A stretch of 53,792 bases of DNA, from NCBI GenBank assembly GCA_028352435.1, contig JAOMMB010000006.1:1-53792 (forward strand), read 5' to 3'. This document shows, one piece after another, positions 28,281-34,924 of the stretch. A program made the position numbers and the translations under genes. The stretch's first letter is position 1; the number at the start of each line of letters is the position of its first letter. The notes under the pieces were generated by a model. The model was not told the origin of the DNA, did not search any database, and saw nothing but the letters and a program-made list of their open reading frames with translations. This stretch comes from Candidatus Thioglobus sp. (GTDB taxonomy: Bacteria > Pseudomonadota > Gammaproteobacteria > PS1 > Pseudothioglobaceae).

Positions 28281-28308
28281 AAAAACCGCATCCATTGATG
28301 CGGTTTTT
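28281..28308. terminator. bidirectional terminator between aldB and the 93-residue gene
   Basis: AAAAACCGCATC (28281-28292) pairs perfectly with GATGCGGTTTTT (28297-28308), with loop CATT and U tracts on both strands. It serves the convergent aldB and the minus-strand gene that stops at 28309. A smaller stem, TAGCCTT/AAGGCTA, lies just before it at 28255-28272. Confidence 0.9.
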
Positions 28309-28590
28309 TTAATTTAAAGTTTTCTTTAAATCATCAATAGAAAAGCTTTGAACAGTTTGTTCGTCAGTATAAACTGGCTTCATTTTAGTATGGGTACCAG
28401 CTTGTTTTTCAATTTCAGTTTGACGAGAAGTAACAAGATTTAAACAATCAGTAATCATTTTTTGTGTGTTTTCGGTCAATGGATGACGCAGGCCTGGCTT
28501 GGTCATGGTGTCTTTTGCAACTGAGATTAGGGTTTTTCTCATGGCACTTAGCATTCTAACTTCTAAATCGGGTGTATTGGTATCACTCAT
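28309..28590 (-). CDS. conserved small protein (93 aa), unknown function
   Basis: The 93-residue soluble protein has a helical, charged pattern with MLSAMRKTLISVAKDTMTKPGLRHPLTENT near the N-terminus and CLNLVTSRQTEIEKQ in the middle. From memory this resembles short gammaproteobacterial and betaproteobacterial proteins sometimes labelled as related to segregation and condensation protein A, but I cannot confirm the link, and it is far too short to be ScpA. It overlaps nagZ by 4 bp and is the last gene of the long minus-strand run, ending at a strong terminator. Confidence 0.75.
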   Translation of the reverse strand: MSDTNTPDLEVRMLSAMRKTLISVAKDTMTKPGLRHPLTENTQKMITDCLNLVTSRQTEIEKQAGTHTKMKPVYTDEQTVQSFSIDDLKKTLN

Positions 28591-29573
28591 AATAAGCTCT
28601 TAATAGTTTCTAAATGTTGTAAGTGGGTTATTTTATCGGATTTATACCTTCTATTGCCTTGCATTGATTGTAGCTTTTCATTCGAGCCCCAATCTTGATC
28701 AATGACCTCTAATAGCATCTCTGGATGATTACAAATCAACACCATATCACAACCACTATCTAGGGAAATTTTCACACGGTCTTTAATATTTTCAATGAAT
28801 AAAGCGCCCTGCATTGATAAATCATCACTAAAAACAACCCCATCAAAACCCAGCTGACTTTTTAAAATATCTTGAATCCAAACATTGGAAAATCCTGCGG
28901 GCTTATCATCCACTTTTGAATATATTACATGCGCTGGCATTACTGCGTCAAGACCCTCATCAACCAAACCTTTAAAAGTCGCCATGTCTTGGTAAATTTC
29001 CTTTGCAGGACGCTCATCAACTGGCAAGTCTATATGTGAATCTAATGAGACATATCCATGTCCTGGAAAGTGCTTACCAACACACTTCATCCCAGCCCTA
29101 TGCATGCCTTTAATTAACGCCTGTGCCAATTTAATAATTGCATCAGGATTTGAGTGAAACGCCCTATCTCCAATCACTGAAGAATTACCATAATCCATAT
29201 CAAGCACAGGTGCAAAAGAAAAATCCACATCAATTTCTAATAACTCATACGCTAGAATAAAGCCACATGAGCAGGCATATTTTATTGCTTTTTTGGGCTT
29301 TTTATCGTAAAGCTCACCCAGCTTTGACATGGCTGGCAGATGTGTAAATCCTTCTTTAAAACGCTGAACTCTTCCACCTTCATGATCAACAGAAATTAAG
29401 ATATTTGGATTAACCGCTCTAATAGAACTAATCAGCTGCTTGACTTGATTAATCGATTCGAAGTTACGACTAAATAAAATAACACCGCCAATACTGGGTT
29501 TTGCTAATTGTGTTTCTTCTGTCTGTGTCAGTGTCGGTCCTGACACGTCCATCATGATTGGTCCTAGGTTCAT
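28587..29573 (-). CDS. nagZ: beta-N-acetylhexosaminidase NagZ
   Basis: NagZ is the cytoplasmic family 3 glycosidase that removes GlcNAc from anhydromuropeptides imported during cell-wall recycling. The 328-residue length is typical. The acid/base loop KHFPGHGYVSLDSHIDLP and the nucleophile segment VFSDDLSMQGAL are both present, as is ISVDHEGGRVQRF. It lies 8 bp after ampG, which imports its substrate, so the two steps of recycling are encoded together. Confidence 0.96.
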   Translation of the reverse strand: MNLGPIMMDVSGPTLTQTEETQLAKPSIGGVILFSRNFESINQVKQLISSIRAVNPNILISVDHEGGRVQRFKEGFTHLPAMSKLGELYDKKPKKAIKYACSCGFILAYELLEIDVDFSFAPVLDMDYGNSSVIGDRAFHSNPDAIIKLAQALIKGMHRAGMKCVGKHFPGHGYVSLDSHIDLPVDERPAKEIYQDMATFKGLVDEGLDAVMPAHVIYSKVDDKPAGFSNVWIQDILKSQLGFDGVVFSDDLSMQGALFIENIKDRVKISLDSGCDMVLICNHPEMLLEVIDQDWGSNEKLQSMQGNRRYKSDKITHLQHLETIKSLL

Positions 29574-29580
29574 AATTTCT

Positions 29581-31095
29581 CTAATTGATATAAGGTTTAA
29601 CTTTGTACACTAAATACAAAATAGGCAGTCCTATTAACGTAGTTATAATGAAAAATTGACTATAGCCAAATGCTTCAACAATGCTACCCGAATAGCCACC
29701 GAAAATTTTGGGAAGAAGTGTCATTAGTGAAGAAAAAATTGCATACTGGACAGCGGTAAATTTAATATTAGTCAAACTAGATAAGAAAGCAATAAAAGCT
29801 GCACTAGCTAATCCAGCAGATAAATTATCCATGGTAATAGTTGCATAAAGCCAAGTTATGTTATGGCCAACATTTGCCAAAACAATAAAGAGTAAATTAG
29901 TTAATGCAGAAAGCGCTGCTCCCAAAAATAATACCTTAAACACACCCCATTTAATTGCCATTAGCCCACCTAAAAATCCTCCAGCGATGGTCATAAATAA
30001 ACCAAAGGTTTTGGACACGGTGGCAATTTCTATTTTCGTAAAACCCATATCTTGATAAAAGATATTGGCTACAACGCCAAGCACGATATCACTAATACGA
30101 TATAAGCCAATAACTGCTAATAACAACACAGCAACACTCATTCCATATCGGCTAAAAAAATCTTTAACGGGTTCAATGTAAGTACCATTAACCATAGATT
30201 TGTTAACCACCTTAAGCTTGATCAACAGTCGAGTGGCAATATACGCTCCAGAAATGGCCAAGACCAATCTTACTGCACCAACAATAAATCCAGCCAGATG
30301 TTTGTTAGCAAAAATTTCCGTTAAATTTGATTTAAGTGTTTTAACCAGCTCTGCACTAAAAATAAAGGTAGCAATAAATGCTGCCACTACGACTAAAAAT
30401 AAAGCGAAAAATCGAACGTAATCTTGGGTGGAATAATGGTCTTCATGACGACTATGGTTAGGCTCCTTGACCAATAAGGTGGTTACCACGCCTACCATCA
30501 TAACCATAATCATCACTAGATAAGTATTAGACCAAGCTGAAAAACTATATAGCTCTTTAGTAGATCCAAAATAACTAGCTAAAAATAAACCACCTGCACC
30601 GGCCGCCAACATGCCAATACGATAGCCTGCAACATAAGTTGCTGAAAGTATAGACTGCATATTTTTATCGGCTGACTCAATACGATAAGCATCAATAACG
30701 ATATCTTGAGTCGCTGATGAAAAGCCTAATAAAACTGCACCATAAGCCATAATAGTTAAGCTATCAACGCCAGCTTTAGGGTCAACTGATGACATAAGTA
30801 AAATTGCACTCATGATTGCTAGTTGTGAAACCAGCATCCATGCACGACGACGGCCTAATAGTTTAGTCAAAATCGGCAAAGGTAAGCGATCGACTAAGGG
30901 TGCCCAAACAAACTTAAATGAGTAGCCTAATGCGGCCCAAGAAAAAAAAGTAATACTAGATTTTGCAACACCCGCCTCATTCAGCCACAGACCTAATGTG
31001 GAAAAAATAAGCAAAATCGGTACCCCTGCTGAAAATCCCAAAAATAGCATGGCAGCTACCCGAGGGTGAACAAATAGTCGAAGACTTTCTAACAC
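29581..31095 (-). CDS. ampG: AmpG-type muropeptide permease (MFS)
   Basis: AmpG imports GlcNAc-anhydroMurNAc-peptides across the inner membrane. The 504-residue protein has at least twelve hydrophobic segments. Its N-terminus, with GFSAGVPILLIFSTLGLWLNEAGV and FVWAPLVDRLPLP, is characteristic of the AmpG subfamily. GFSSATQDIVIDAYRIE is another family landmark. It overlaps the rhodanese gene by 7 bp upstream and precedes nagZ by 8 bp, which strongly supports the assignment. Confidence 0.94.
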   Translation of the reverse strand: MLESLRLFVHPRVAAMLFLGFSAGVPILLIFSTLGLWLNEAGVAKSSITFFSWAALGYSFKFVWAPLVDRLPLPILTKLLGRRRAWMLVSQLAIMSAILLMSSVDPKAGVDSLTIMAYGAVLLGFSSATQDIVIDAYRIESADKNMQSILSATYVAGYRIGMLAAGAGGLFLASYFGSTKELYSFSAWSNTYLVMIMVMMVGVVTTLLVKEPNHSRHEDHYSTQDYVRFFALFLVVVAAFIATFIFSAELVKTLKSNLTEIFANKHLAGFIVGAVRLVLAISGAYIATRLLIKLKVVNKSMVNGTYIEPVKDFFSRYGMSVAVLLLAVIGLYRISDIVLGVVANIFYQDMGFTKIEIATVSKTFGLFMTIAGGFLGGLMAIKWGVFKVLFLGAALSALTNLLFIVLANVGHNITWLYATITMDNLSAGLASAAFIAFLSSLTNIKFTAVQYAIFSSLMTLLPKIFGGYSGSIVEAFGYSQFFIITTLIGLPILYLVYKVKPYIN

Positions 31096-31478
31096 TGAAT
31101 CCAGGGCATACCTTCATGACGCCATCCATTGACGTTGCCACGTTGATTCTCTTCATCAAGATCACCTTCAAAACCACTCACTACATGGGCAATGTTAGTA
31201 AATCCGTTTTTAACTAAGCATTTTCCTGCATCATTAGAGCGATAACCACTTCGACAAATTAAAATAATTTCAGTATCTTTATCAATATCAAACCGTGAAA
31301 ATGTCTTAATAAACTTCTCCTCATCTACTTCCCATTCTGGCTCATCTAACCATGGAATAAGGATAGAGTTTGGCACACGTCCTACAAATTTATTCTCCGC
31401 TTCACAGCGAACATCGATCAAAATAGCACCTTCTAGAATAAGCTTAACTGCTTTTTTTGGTAAATAATTTTTAATCAT
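31089..31478 (-). CDS. rhodanese-like domain protein
   Basis: The 129-residue single-domain rhodanese carries its active cysteine at residue 75 in ICRSGYRSNDAGK, preceded by the usual ILIDVRCEAE and RVPNSILIPW segments. Such proteins carry sulfane sulfur as a persulfide. It has no signal peptide and is therefore cytoplasmic. It is embedded between the YkuD-type gene (4-bp overlap) and ampG (7-bp overlap), so it is translationally coupled to cell-wall-recycling genes. Why a sulfurtransferase sits there is not clear from the sequence. Confidence 0.9.
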   Translation of the reverse strand: MIKNYLPKKAVKLILEGAILIDVRCEAENKFVGRVPNSILIPWLDEPEWEVDEEKFIKTFSRFDIDKDTEIILICRSGYRSNDAGKCLVKNGFTNIAHVVSGFEGDLDEENQRGNVNGWRHEGMPWIQC

Positions 31479-31915
31479 TTGATTACCACCTCTTCGCCTA
31501 CTTTAACTTGGTTGAATAGTTGAATGATATCATTGTTTTTCATACGGATACAGCCTTTTGACCCGGGCTTTCCCATGGTGAATTCATCTGCTGAGCCATG
31601 AATATAAATATATCGTTGTTTGGTATTTTTATTGTGTAGTTCAACTCCATCAAGCCAAAGAATACGAGATAAAATCCAATCTCGACCAGGTTGCTCATCA
31701 AACAGTTTTTTTGAATAAACCTCACCTGTTGGCACGCGCCCTACTAGCACCGAACCTAACTCTAAGTCATCGCCAATTTTTTCATCAATTTTGAACTTTC
31801 CCAAAGGTGTACAAAAAGACCCTTGTATTTCACCAACGCCATTAACAGCGCTGCTAATTAAATACACTGTATCTTTATAGGTTAAAGTTTGATTAGCAAT
31901 ATTGATTGTAATCAT
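31475..31915 (-). CDS. signal-less YkuD-domain enzyme, probable cytoplasmic L,D-carboxypeptidase (ElsL-like)
   Basis: The 146-residue protein is a bare YkuD (L,D-transpeptidase) catalytic domain. The histidine motif YIYIHGSADEF is at about 102-112, and the catalytic Cys122 is in SKGCIRMKN. It starts directly with MITINIANQTLTYKD and has no signal peptide, membrane anchor or LysM domain, so it should stay in the cytoplasm, where cell-wall cross-linking cannot occur. The neighbours downstream are ampG and nagZ. A signal-less YkuD enzyme, ElsL of Acinetobacter, is known to act as a recycling L,D-carboxypeptidase, and the same role is inferred here. Confidence 0.85.
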   Translation of the reverse strand: MITINIANQTLTYKDTVYLISSAVNGVGEIQGSFCTPLGKFKIDEKIGDDLELGSVLVGRVPTGEVYSKKLFDEQPGRDWILSRILWLDGVELHNKNTKQRYIYIHGSADEFTMGKPGSKGCIRMKNNDIIQLFNQVKVGEEVVIK

Positions 31916-31924
31916 AAGAGTGTA

Positions 31925-33241
31925 TTATTTGGTGAAGAGCGCAATAGATTCAACGTGGGCAGTTTGAGGGAACATATCCATTACCCCAGCCATATCGAGT
32001 TTATAACCCAGTTCAATTAGTTTAGCCGTGTCGCGAGCAAGTGTTGCAGGATTACAGGACACATACACCAAGCGCTCCACACCTAATTTTGGTAACAGCT
32101 CTACAATTTCAATGGCGCCAGAGCGTGCCGGATCAATAAGTGCCTTATTATAAGTTTTACCTCTGAACCATTCAAAGCCTTTCACCTCTTTAAATAGATC
32201 AGCTTTGTAAAAATCAGCATTGGTTATTGAGTTTTTTTCAGCATTATACTTAGCTCGCTCAATCAAGCCCAAGTCGCCCTCTATACCAACGACATGTTTA
32301 GAATATTTAGCAATGGGCAAGGTGAAATTGCCCAAACCACAAAATAGGTCAATCACTTCATCTTGATCATTAAGCGCCAACATTTCTAGAGCTAGGTTGA
32401 TCATTTTTTGATTTAACTTAAAATTAACCTGAGTAAAGTCAGTCGGTAAAAACTCCATAACAATGTCATGATCAGGGTGTGAATAAGTCAATACTGCAGG
32501 CTTATCTAAGGGTTTAACCGTATCTGCACCACCACTTTGAGTATAAAAAGTAACGTTTAACTCATTAGCGCAATCTAGCAATATTTGCTCATCTTGCTCG
32601 CTAAGTGATTCCAAATGGCGCAAAATTAACACTGTGCTATTTTCAGCTACAGCTACTTCAAGTTGTGGTACTTGTGATTTAATGGAAAGCTTGCCAATGC
32701 ATTCGGCCAGCACTTCAAGATTGTCGCCTAACGAAGGGTGTAATACTTCACAACGGCTCATATTGGTAATGAAACCAGATTTCTTTTCTCTAAAGCCGAC
32801 TAAAACTTTCTCTTTTTTGGCAACATAACGAACGCCTAATCTGGCTTTACGTCGATAGCCCCAGCTTTGTTCTTGTAGCGGAGCAAGCCAGTGTTTTGGT
32901 GCAACTTTAGCTTGGCCAGAAAATGCATCTTTTAACCATTCTGCTTTAGCCTGGATTTGGTCTTCACTAGATAAGTGTTGAAATGAACAGCCACCACAAA
33001 CACCAAACACTTCACATTTTGGCTTGATTCTATTTTCAGCAGGTTTTAGCACCTCAATTACATCAGCTTCTTCAAACTTTGCACGAGAAAAGGTGCGGTC
33101 TGCCCGCACGGTTTCACCAGGCAAGGCGCCACTCACAAAGATAACTTTTTCTTCCAAATGCGCAATGCCTCGACCTTCATGTGACAATGACTCAATGTCT
33201 AATTCGTAAGTTTTGGCCTTTGGCTTTCTTCTTCTACCCAT
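31925..33241 (-). CDS. rlmD: 23S rRNA (uracil(1939)-C5)-methyltransferase RlmD
   Basis: RlmD (RumA) methylates U1939 of 23S rRNA using SAM. The 438-residue protein has an N-terminal TRAM domain (about 8-65) and the [4Fe-4S]-binding cysteines in CEVFGVCGGCSFQHL. Its methyltransferase motifs are DLFCGLGNFTLPIA, LIDPARSGA and VSCNPATLARD, the last holding the nucleophilic cysteine. It lies 16 bp after glcF and 9 bp before the YkuD gene, linking the two halves of the long run. Confidence 0.96.
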   Translation of the reverse strand: MGRRRKPKAKTYELDIESLSHEGRGIAHLEEKVIFVSGALPGETVRADRTFSRAKFEEADVIEVLKPAENRIKPKCEVFGVCGGCSFQHLSSEDQIQAKAEWLKDAFSGQAKVAPKHWLAPLQEQSWGYRRKARLGVRYVAKKEKVLVGFREKKSGFITNMSRCEVLHPSLGDNLEVLAECIGKLSIKSQVPQLEVAVAENSTVLILRHLESLSEQDEQILLDCANELNVTFYTQSGGADTVKPLDKPAVLTYSHPDHDIVMEFLPTDFTQVNFKLNQKMINLALEMLALNDQDEVIDLFCGLGNFTLPIAKYSKHVVGIEGDLGLIERAKYNAEKNSITNADFYKADLFKEVKGFEWFRGKTYNKALIDPARSGAIEIVELLPKLGVERLVYVSCNPATLARDTAKLIELGYKLDMAGVMDMFPQTAHVESIALFTK

Positions 33242-33257: not shown

Positions 33258-34391
33258 TTAATTGGTCTGATTATCCAATAATTCCACCCAATGTTTAACG
33301 GGAATTTCACTGTCTTTTTGTAAATGCATTAAACAGCCAATATTTGCCGTTACTATCATCTCTGGATTAGAAGCTTTAAGATTATTGATTTTATTAGTCT
33401 TAAGCCGTTTTGAAAGATCCGGCTGGAAAATTGAATACGTGCCTGCCGAGCCACAACACAAATGGGAGTCTTTAACGGGGGCTGGCGAATAACCTAGAGA
33501 ATCTAGAATTGAATTAACCAATCCTGCTAATTTTTGACCATGTTGGAGCGTACAAGGCTCATGATATGAAATATTAGCCTGCTCCAACTCAAGTTTAGAC
33601 AAATCTTTATCAATTAAAAATTCAGCAATATCTTGGGTTTTGTTAGAGATCTCTTGTGCTTTTTGGTAGTAATCATCTCCCTGTGTAAATAGTGAAGCAT
33701 AATCTTTCACCATTAGCCCGCAACCACTAGCACTAGAAATAATCGTATCAACATCAAACTCTATCCAAGTATCAATATTCGATTTAATTTTGATCAGTGC
33801 ATCGTGTTCAGCACTAAGATGCTGATCTACTGCACCACAACATTGTTTTTGTGGAGTTTCAATGGCTTCAAAGCCTAATTTTGCTAAAATATTCTTAATA
33901 CTATGATTAATATTAGGCGCAAGCACAGGCTGCACACAGCCACCTAATAGTAAAACTTTTTTACTATTGACAATTGGCTCGACAGCCTCACCTTGTTTTT
34001 TTGAATGTCTGGAAATACGTCCAATCGGATTAAAAAGCACTGGCGTTGTTAAAAGTTTACGTATTGAATAACGCATTGCTTTTTGCCAAACAGGTCTTTT
34101 TTGTTCAACAAACTCTCTACCGATATCGATCAACTTTCCATATTCAACTCCCGAAGGGCATGTGGTTTCACAAGCTCTACAAGTAAGACAACGATCTAGG
34201 TGCTTAATACTTTCACCAGAGAAATAATTTTTCTCAAGAGAAGATTTGATCAGATAAATACGTCCACGTGGAGAGTCGAGCTCTGAACCAAGTAATTGAT
34301 ATGTAGGGCAAGTAGCCAAGCAGAATCCACAATGCACACATTTTCGAATAATTTCATTTGCTTTAAAATTAGCAATCTGATTTGTTTGCAT
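33258..34391 (-). CDS. glcF: glycolate oxidase iron-sulfur subunit GlcF
   Basis: GlcF is the electron-transfer subunit of the GlcDEF glycolate oxidase. Two 4Fe-4S ferredoxin motifs are near the N-terminus (CVHCGFCLATCPTY and CLTCRACETTCPSG). Two CCG domains follow (GGCVQPVLAP...QCCGA and SYHEPCTLQHGQ...HLCCGSAGTY). At 377 residues it is slightly shorter than E. coli GlcF (407). Its ATG overlaps the glcE stop codon (TAATG), so the subunits are translationally coupled. Confidence 0.94.
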   Translation of the reverse strand: MQTNQIANFKANEIIRKCVHCGFCLATCPTYQLLGSELDSPRGRIYLIKSSLEKNYFSGESIKHLDRCLTCRACETTCPSGVEYGKLIDIGREFVEQKRPVWQKAMRYSIRKLLTTPVLFNPIGRISRHSKKQGEAVEPIVNSKKVLLLGGCVQPVLAPNINHSIKNILAKLGFEAIETPQKQCCGAVDQHLSAEHDALIKIKSNIDTWIEFDVDTIISSASGCGLMVKDYASLFTQGDDYYQKAQEISNKTQDIAEFLIDKDLSKLELEQANISYHEPCTLQHGQKLAGLVNSILDSLGYSPAPVKDSHLCCGSAGTYSIFQPDLSKRLKTNKINNLKASNPEMIVTANIGCLMHLQKDSEIPVKHWVELLDNQTN

Positions 34392-34924
34392 TAATTAAAT
34401 ATTCCTCTTGGATCAAATACTGCTTTTAGTCGATTTTCAATTACTTCACGCAGCGCTGAACGCTCAACTGTTTTAATTCGAGACTTAAGCTCTCCCACAT
34501 AATTACGCGGCATTACTTTAAAGCTAATTTGAGTAACAACAGCCAATTGGCCTTTTGAACCAATCAGCATTCTAGCGACGTCATAACCAGCCACATTTTT
34601 CATCACTTGCCCGCCAAAATTTAGCAATTCACCCGACCCATCAATAATCTGCACACCAAGAACACTGTCAGATAAATCTTGCGCACCATTAGCATAAGCA
34701 GCGCCAATGCTTTGCTCTTGATTTTCAACATAAAATGGCAACACTTGATCATTTTTAGCAAGCACCTTACAAATTTCGGCAATGGGTGTACTAGCCTTAA
34801 CCGTAATAACCAACTCTTCTGAGAAATACTCCTCAACACCCGTATGATTTAGCCAGCTACTAGTAATATGAAGACCGTTGGATGATTTAATTTCTTCTTG
34901 TAACTTTGAAAGGTTATCTGACAT
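34391..34924 (-). CDS. glcE: glycolate oxidase subunit GlcE, internally shortened
   Basis: GlcE is the second FAD-domain subunit of GlcDEF. This copy has only 177 residues, about half the E. coli length (350). The part present covers the later FAD-binding domain (ELVITVKASTPIAEI, then FGGQVMKNVAGYDVARMLIGSKGQLAVVTQISFKVMP). It then jumps straight to the family's C-terminal tail (RLKAVFDPRGIFN), skipping the cap domain of about 150 residues. Both ends abut neighbours through TAATG overlaps, so no fragment is hidden nearby and no frameshift is involved. It is probably functional as a compact subunit. Confidence 0.88.
   Translation of the reverse strand: MSDNLSKLQEEIKSSNGLHITSSWLNHTGVEEYFSEELVITVKASTPIAEICKVLAKNDQVLPFYVENQEQSIGAAYANGAQDLSDSVLGVQIIDGSGELLNFGGQVMKNVAGYDVARMLIGSKGQLAVVTQISFKVMPRNYVGELKSRIKTVERSALREVIENRLKAVFDPRGIFN

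Follow-up and report, generated by a model that had tools for sequence, protein, structure and literature searches.

In a contig of Candidatus Thioglobus sp., taken here to be a marine sulfur oxidiser of the Thioglobus/SUP05 type, a gene for a small YkuD-domain protein lies in one run with the genes for a rhodanese, the muropeptide importer AmpG and the beta-N-acetylhexosaminidase NagZ. Most characterised YkuD-domain proteins are periplasmic transpeptidases, and the order of genes raises the question of whether this protein is such an enzyme or acts in the cytoplasm on imported wall peptides. An earlier note on this DNA had proposed the latter, i.e. an L,D-carboxypeptidase of the ElsL type in place of LdcA, and had suggested that recycling may be under redox- or sulfur-linked control, marked by the rhodanese. 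The window, i.e. the whole stretch of 53,792 nucleotides analysed here, was examined together with genomes of the host family and of other Gammaproteobacteria.

ElsL was first described in 2021 and was then reported to be widespread in Gammaproteobacteria (PMC8649774). L,D-carboxypeptidase chemistry was demonstrated for the enzyme of A. baumannii, the loss of which is harmful via the build-up of tetrapeptides, and the harm is bypassed by blocking recycling (PMC8649774). A literature search for Thioglobus with peptidoglycan recycling yielded nothing beyond a single mention of each term.

Organization of the gene run

The genes and signals of the locus are listed in Table 1. As described in the earlier note, the YkuD gene is co-directional with the rhodanese gene, ampG and nagZ. 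The successive gaps are -4 nt (elsL-rhodanese), -7 nt (rhodanese-ampG) and +7 nt (ampG-nagZ), followed by -4 nt between nagZ and orf93. Upstream of elsL, the run continues unbroken into rlmD (9 nt) and glcF (16 nt), then glcE and glcD, indicating that the operon of the earlier note is the end of a longer run. Promoter-like matches at the locus showed no excess (29, against 30.1 in shuffles). The order elsL-rhodanese-ampG-nagZ was found again in eight genera of the host family, in most cases flanked by rlmD and glcF immediately upstream and by orf93 on the downstream side, and such an arrangement is not due to chance.

Table 1. Features of the elsL locus in the window
Feature	Position	Strand	Properties
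RlmD 23S rRNA methyltransferase	31925..33241	minus	directly upstream of elsL; PRK13168 560 bits
elsL, putative ElsL-type leaderless YkuD L,D-carboxypeptidase	31475..31915	minus	146 aa; H106 and C122; NF040925 147 bits, PF03734 71.7 bits
Single-domain rhodanese	31089..31478	minus	129 aa; active loop CRSGYRS; PF00581 41.8 bits; by comparative genomics a neighbour, not a recycling-specific partner
AmpG-family muropeptide importer, long type	29581..31095	minus	504 aa; TIGR00901 525 bits (cut-off 350)
NagZ beta-N-acetylhexosaminidase	28587..29573	minus	328 aa; PRK05337 449.8 bits (cut-off 207)
orf93, family-conserved protein, last gene of the run	28309..28590	minus	93 aa; no Pfam match
Terminator-like hairpin	28281..28308		12 bp stem, right after the last stop codon (orf93 side)

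Some members of the run showed features of their own. The product of orf93, without Pfam match even at E 5, is well conserved in the host family and is kept in genus g5, which is without recycling genes. GlcE (34391-34924) is just 177 aa long and overlaps both of its neighbours, glcD and glcF; this short form was also found in relatives wherever glcE was within reach. AmpG occurs in the same slot across the host family as two types, long (about 504 aa; 67-99% identical to AmpG of the window) and short (about 430-470 aa; 31-38% identical), with clear orthologues on either side in both cases, which looks like a replacement of ampG in situ (loci L045, L049, L050, L055 and L059). In genus g3, the genome G066 (locus L072) has neither elsL nor mpl but a solitary ampG (41-45% identical).

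Probable assignment of the YkuD protein to the ElsL class

The 146-residue protein carries YkuD as its sole Pfam domain, with both motifs intact, YIYIHGS containing His106 and SKGCIRM containing Cys122. The description in the earlier note, a YkuD domain without leader or anchor, thus held in Pfam and NCBIfam searches and in analyses of the reading frame and hydropathy. The discoverers of ElsL defined the class by BLAST similarity, a length of 105-200 aa and the lack of a leader, a TM helix and a wall-binding domain (PMC8649774). The length of the window protein lies within this range, and none of the three elements was detected by inspection of the open frame, hydropathy and domain search.

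The domain itself, the YkuD catalytic domain found mostly in periplasmic transpeptidases among characterised proteins, would also fit an exported L,D-transpeptidase, its leader missed, that makes 3-3 cross-links or attaches lipoprotein. After the rlmD stop, however, the elsL frame is open for only 3 codons above the ATG (total open frame, 149 aa), leaving no space for an overlooked signal peptide; a hydrophobic segment is absent from the N-terminus, and the whole product includes no strongly hydrophobic stretch (best 11-residue mean, +1.4) as a candidate for a leader or anchor. An export signal as in periplasmic L,D-transpeptidases was accordingly not found, and the ElsL-type relatives within the host family are likewise leaderless. 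The NCBIfam model of ElsL, NF040925, matched residues 2-140 with 147 bits while the L,D-transpeptidase models gave at most 31 bits over about 45 residues in the C-terminal third, the ElsL model being ahead of every one of them by more than 110 bits. The curated cut-off of NF040925, 270 bits, is of the exception type and was reached neither by the window protein nor by any protein from 232 genomes of the class (0/232), so that its score is compatible with membership in the wider ElsL class. Based on the short upstream frame, the hydropathy, the model scores and the tracking of Mpl described below, the exported transpeptidase was rejected as extremely improbable.

When 48 ElsL-type proteins of the host family and of other Gammaproteobacteria were aligned, more than 40 positions were at least 90% conserved, including the blocks DW.L.RILWL.G and R.IYIHG, and both H106 and C122 were present in all 48 sequences. 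A sequence search of solved structures with the window protein detected transpeptidases only, over the C-terminal third, and no ElsL structure; structure prediction from six relatives gave a mean pLDDT of 39, too low for the model to be relied on. No ElsL relative was found in viral contigs. Taken as a comparison of sequences, the margin between the models makes it very likely that the YkuD protein is a cytoplasmic L,D-carboxypeptidase of the ElsL class, a further member of a class already described in 2021. Its catalytic activity and substrate are those predicted by homology to ElsL of A. baumannii.

Mpl, the murein-tripeptide ligase, and AmpD are both encoded in the genome of the window, outside the locus. 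Following the order of steps in the established recycling pathway, AmpG would import GlcNAc-anhydroMurNAc-peptides, NagZ would remove GlcNAc, and AmpD would free the peptide. Cys122 of ElsL would then cut the terminal D-Ala off the tetrapeptide in the cytosol, and the resulting tripeptide would be joined to UDP-MurNAc by Mpl.

Distribution of L,D-carboxypeptidases

LdcA (PF02016) was detected neither in the genome of the window, which is 928 kb in size and 67% complete so that the absence of LdcA rests partly on relatives, nor in any of 49 good host-family genomes. The window protein itself matches YkuD and not Peptidase_S66. The combination named in the earlier note as contrary to its proposal, a canonical LdcA and an exported YkuD protein, was looked for, and neither part was found. 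Enzymes of the LdcV/VanY type were likewise absent from all 80 host-family genomes. A single LdcA-type (S66) match turned up among these 80, in G061, where it falls within an open frame of 573 aa (locus L037, contig G061:C1); elsL is also present in this genome. YkuD matches in the host family were confined to the elsL locus, one place per genome, i.e. no secreted transpeptidase of the YkuD fold was found in the family.

Among the 232 near-complete genomes of the class, a strong ElsL match (E < 1e-30), counted on the match alone, was missing from 22 of the 24 with LdcA and present in 172 of the 208 without it, the genomes not being phylogenetically independent. LdcA and ElsL thus tend to be mutually exclusive across Gammaproteobacteria.

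Co-occurrence and joint decay of elsL and mpl

The state of ElsL agreed with that of Mpl in 48 of the 49 good family genomes, which are not phylogenetically independent. The agreement in the same genomes was 43 for AmpG, 43 for AmpD and 32 for the rhodanese of the locus. The sole mismatch is a draft assembly, G056, with ElsL and without an Mpl match. Genus g3 is devoid of both ElsL and Mpl, and so is g5 in its two draft genomes.

Eight genomes of genus g2, a genus whose small single-contig genomes appear, judged by size, to resemble those of vesicomyid clam symbionts, keep AmpG, NagZ and AmpD. Both elsL and mpl are intact in three of the eight, and both carry stops or frameshifts in the other five. 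The lesions are not the same: G039, G054 and G062 have a stop at codon 9 in common, G001 has a frameshift near codon 107, and G020 shows general decay. On the NagZ tree, genomes with broken elsL are interleaved with intact G049. Together with the differing lesions, this makes at least two separate losses in g2 likely, although the well-supported branches alone also allow one origin. Judged from gene content, the decay of elsL together with mpl, with ampG, nagZ and ampD intact, links ElsL to the branch of recycling that reuses peptides and not to import at large, and is the pattern expected if ElsL feeds Mpl. We consider this joint decay in symbionts the most useful new point of the analysis.

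Cytosolic trimming of tetrapeptides might serve mainly catabolism or detoxification instead of feeding Mpl. The harm of ElsL loss in A. baumannii through tetrapeptide build-up indicates that removal of tetrapeptides can matter in itself (PMC8649774). The g2 genomes argue against this purpose, because elsL decays there with mpl while the import and processing genes stay intact. The same pattern is expected, however, if tetrapeptides become harmful only once Mpl has ligated them, and the two readings, both of which tie ElsL to Mpl, are only partly separated. We regard detoxification as the main purpose as unlikely, and assign a probability of about 0.9 to the window protein being an ElsL orthologue that trims tetrapeptides to tripeptides in the cytosol and so feeds Mpl. 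The match to the ElsL model, the lack of a leader, the absence of LdcA and LdcV, and the near-perfect co-occurrence and the co-decay with Mpl all support the part of the earlier proposal in which a cytoplasmic ElsL-type enzyme would replace LdcA.

The rhodanese as a neighbour

In the window, the rhodanese gene overlaps elsL on one side and ampG on the other, and the genes are adjacent in most family genomes. This close linkage would fit a rhodanese that is a component of recycling, exerting redox- or sulfur-linked control over ElsL, a cysteine enzyme, or over the operon. Its distribution, however, departs from that of the recycling genes. In g3 and g5, without ElsL and Mpl, the locus is reduced to glcF-rlmD-rhodanese (plus the 93-aa ORF in g5), the rhodanese being retained beside rlmD. 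It is intact beside broken elsL in the five g2 genomes in which mpl is broken too, and broken in G049, in which both elsL and mpl are intact. It lies about 5 kb off in G010 and is absent from the slot in G019 and G032. The stop/start overlap seen in the window, the sign of translational coupling in the earlier note, holds in only part of the genus of the window.

Outside the family, 30 elsL loci of other Gammaproteobacteria were read over up to 3.5 kb, and none of them showed the rhodanese near elsL; nagZ was nearby in nine of them and rlmD in four. It is therefore probable that rlmD-elsL-nagZ is the more ancient arrangement and that the rhodanese was added locally and has a function of its own. 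The pathway-partner role was rejected as very unlikely, and the redox- or sulfur-linked control is not supported; the link is best read as a gene neighbourhood without a common pathway. It is just as doubtful that the rhodanese modulates the ElsL cysteine or recycling flux in those sulfur-oxidising hosts that keep both, with a separate role elsewhere.

Comparison with known systems

The putative ElsL would account for the L,D-carboxypeptidase step in the wall recycling of relatives of Thioglobus and SUP05 and of their animal-symbiont kin. Beside the experiments on Acinetobacter, the gene decay in symbionts gives an independent, evolutionary argument for placing ElsL with Mpl, and the case of the rhodanese illustrates that a neighbouring gene can be conserved and overlapping without being a partner in function.

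With the periplasmic L,D-transpeptidases (LdtE/YnhG, PRK10190, PRK10260 and Bacillus YkuD), the window protein shares the catalytic domain and the HG...SKGCIRM motif. Those enzymes, in contrast, are exported, often carry wall-binding domains and align to the window protein in its C-terminal third only. LdcA (peptidase family S66, PF02016) has the same predicted reaction and pathway step, but is an unrelated serine peptidase not found in the window genome. The LdcV/VanY family (PF02557), which acts at the same step in Vibrio, consists of zinc metallopeptidases, also not found here.

The closest likeness is to ElsL (LdtK) of A. baumannii, represented by NF040925, in the leaderless YkuD domain, the catalytic Cys, the lack of LdcA and LdcV in the genome, and the AmpG-AmpD-Mpl pathway. 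The window protein differs in being shorter (146 aa, against a model of 164 positions) and in scoring 147 bits, below the exception cut-off of 270, and a second, periplasmic YkuD enzyme was not found in the host family. Unlike the gene of A. baumannii, elsL of the window is clustered with rlmD, the rhodanese gene, ampG and nagZ.
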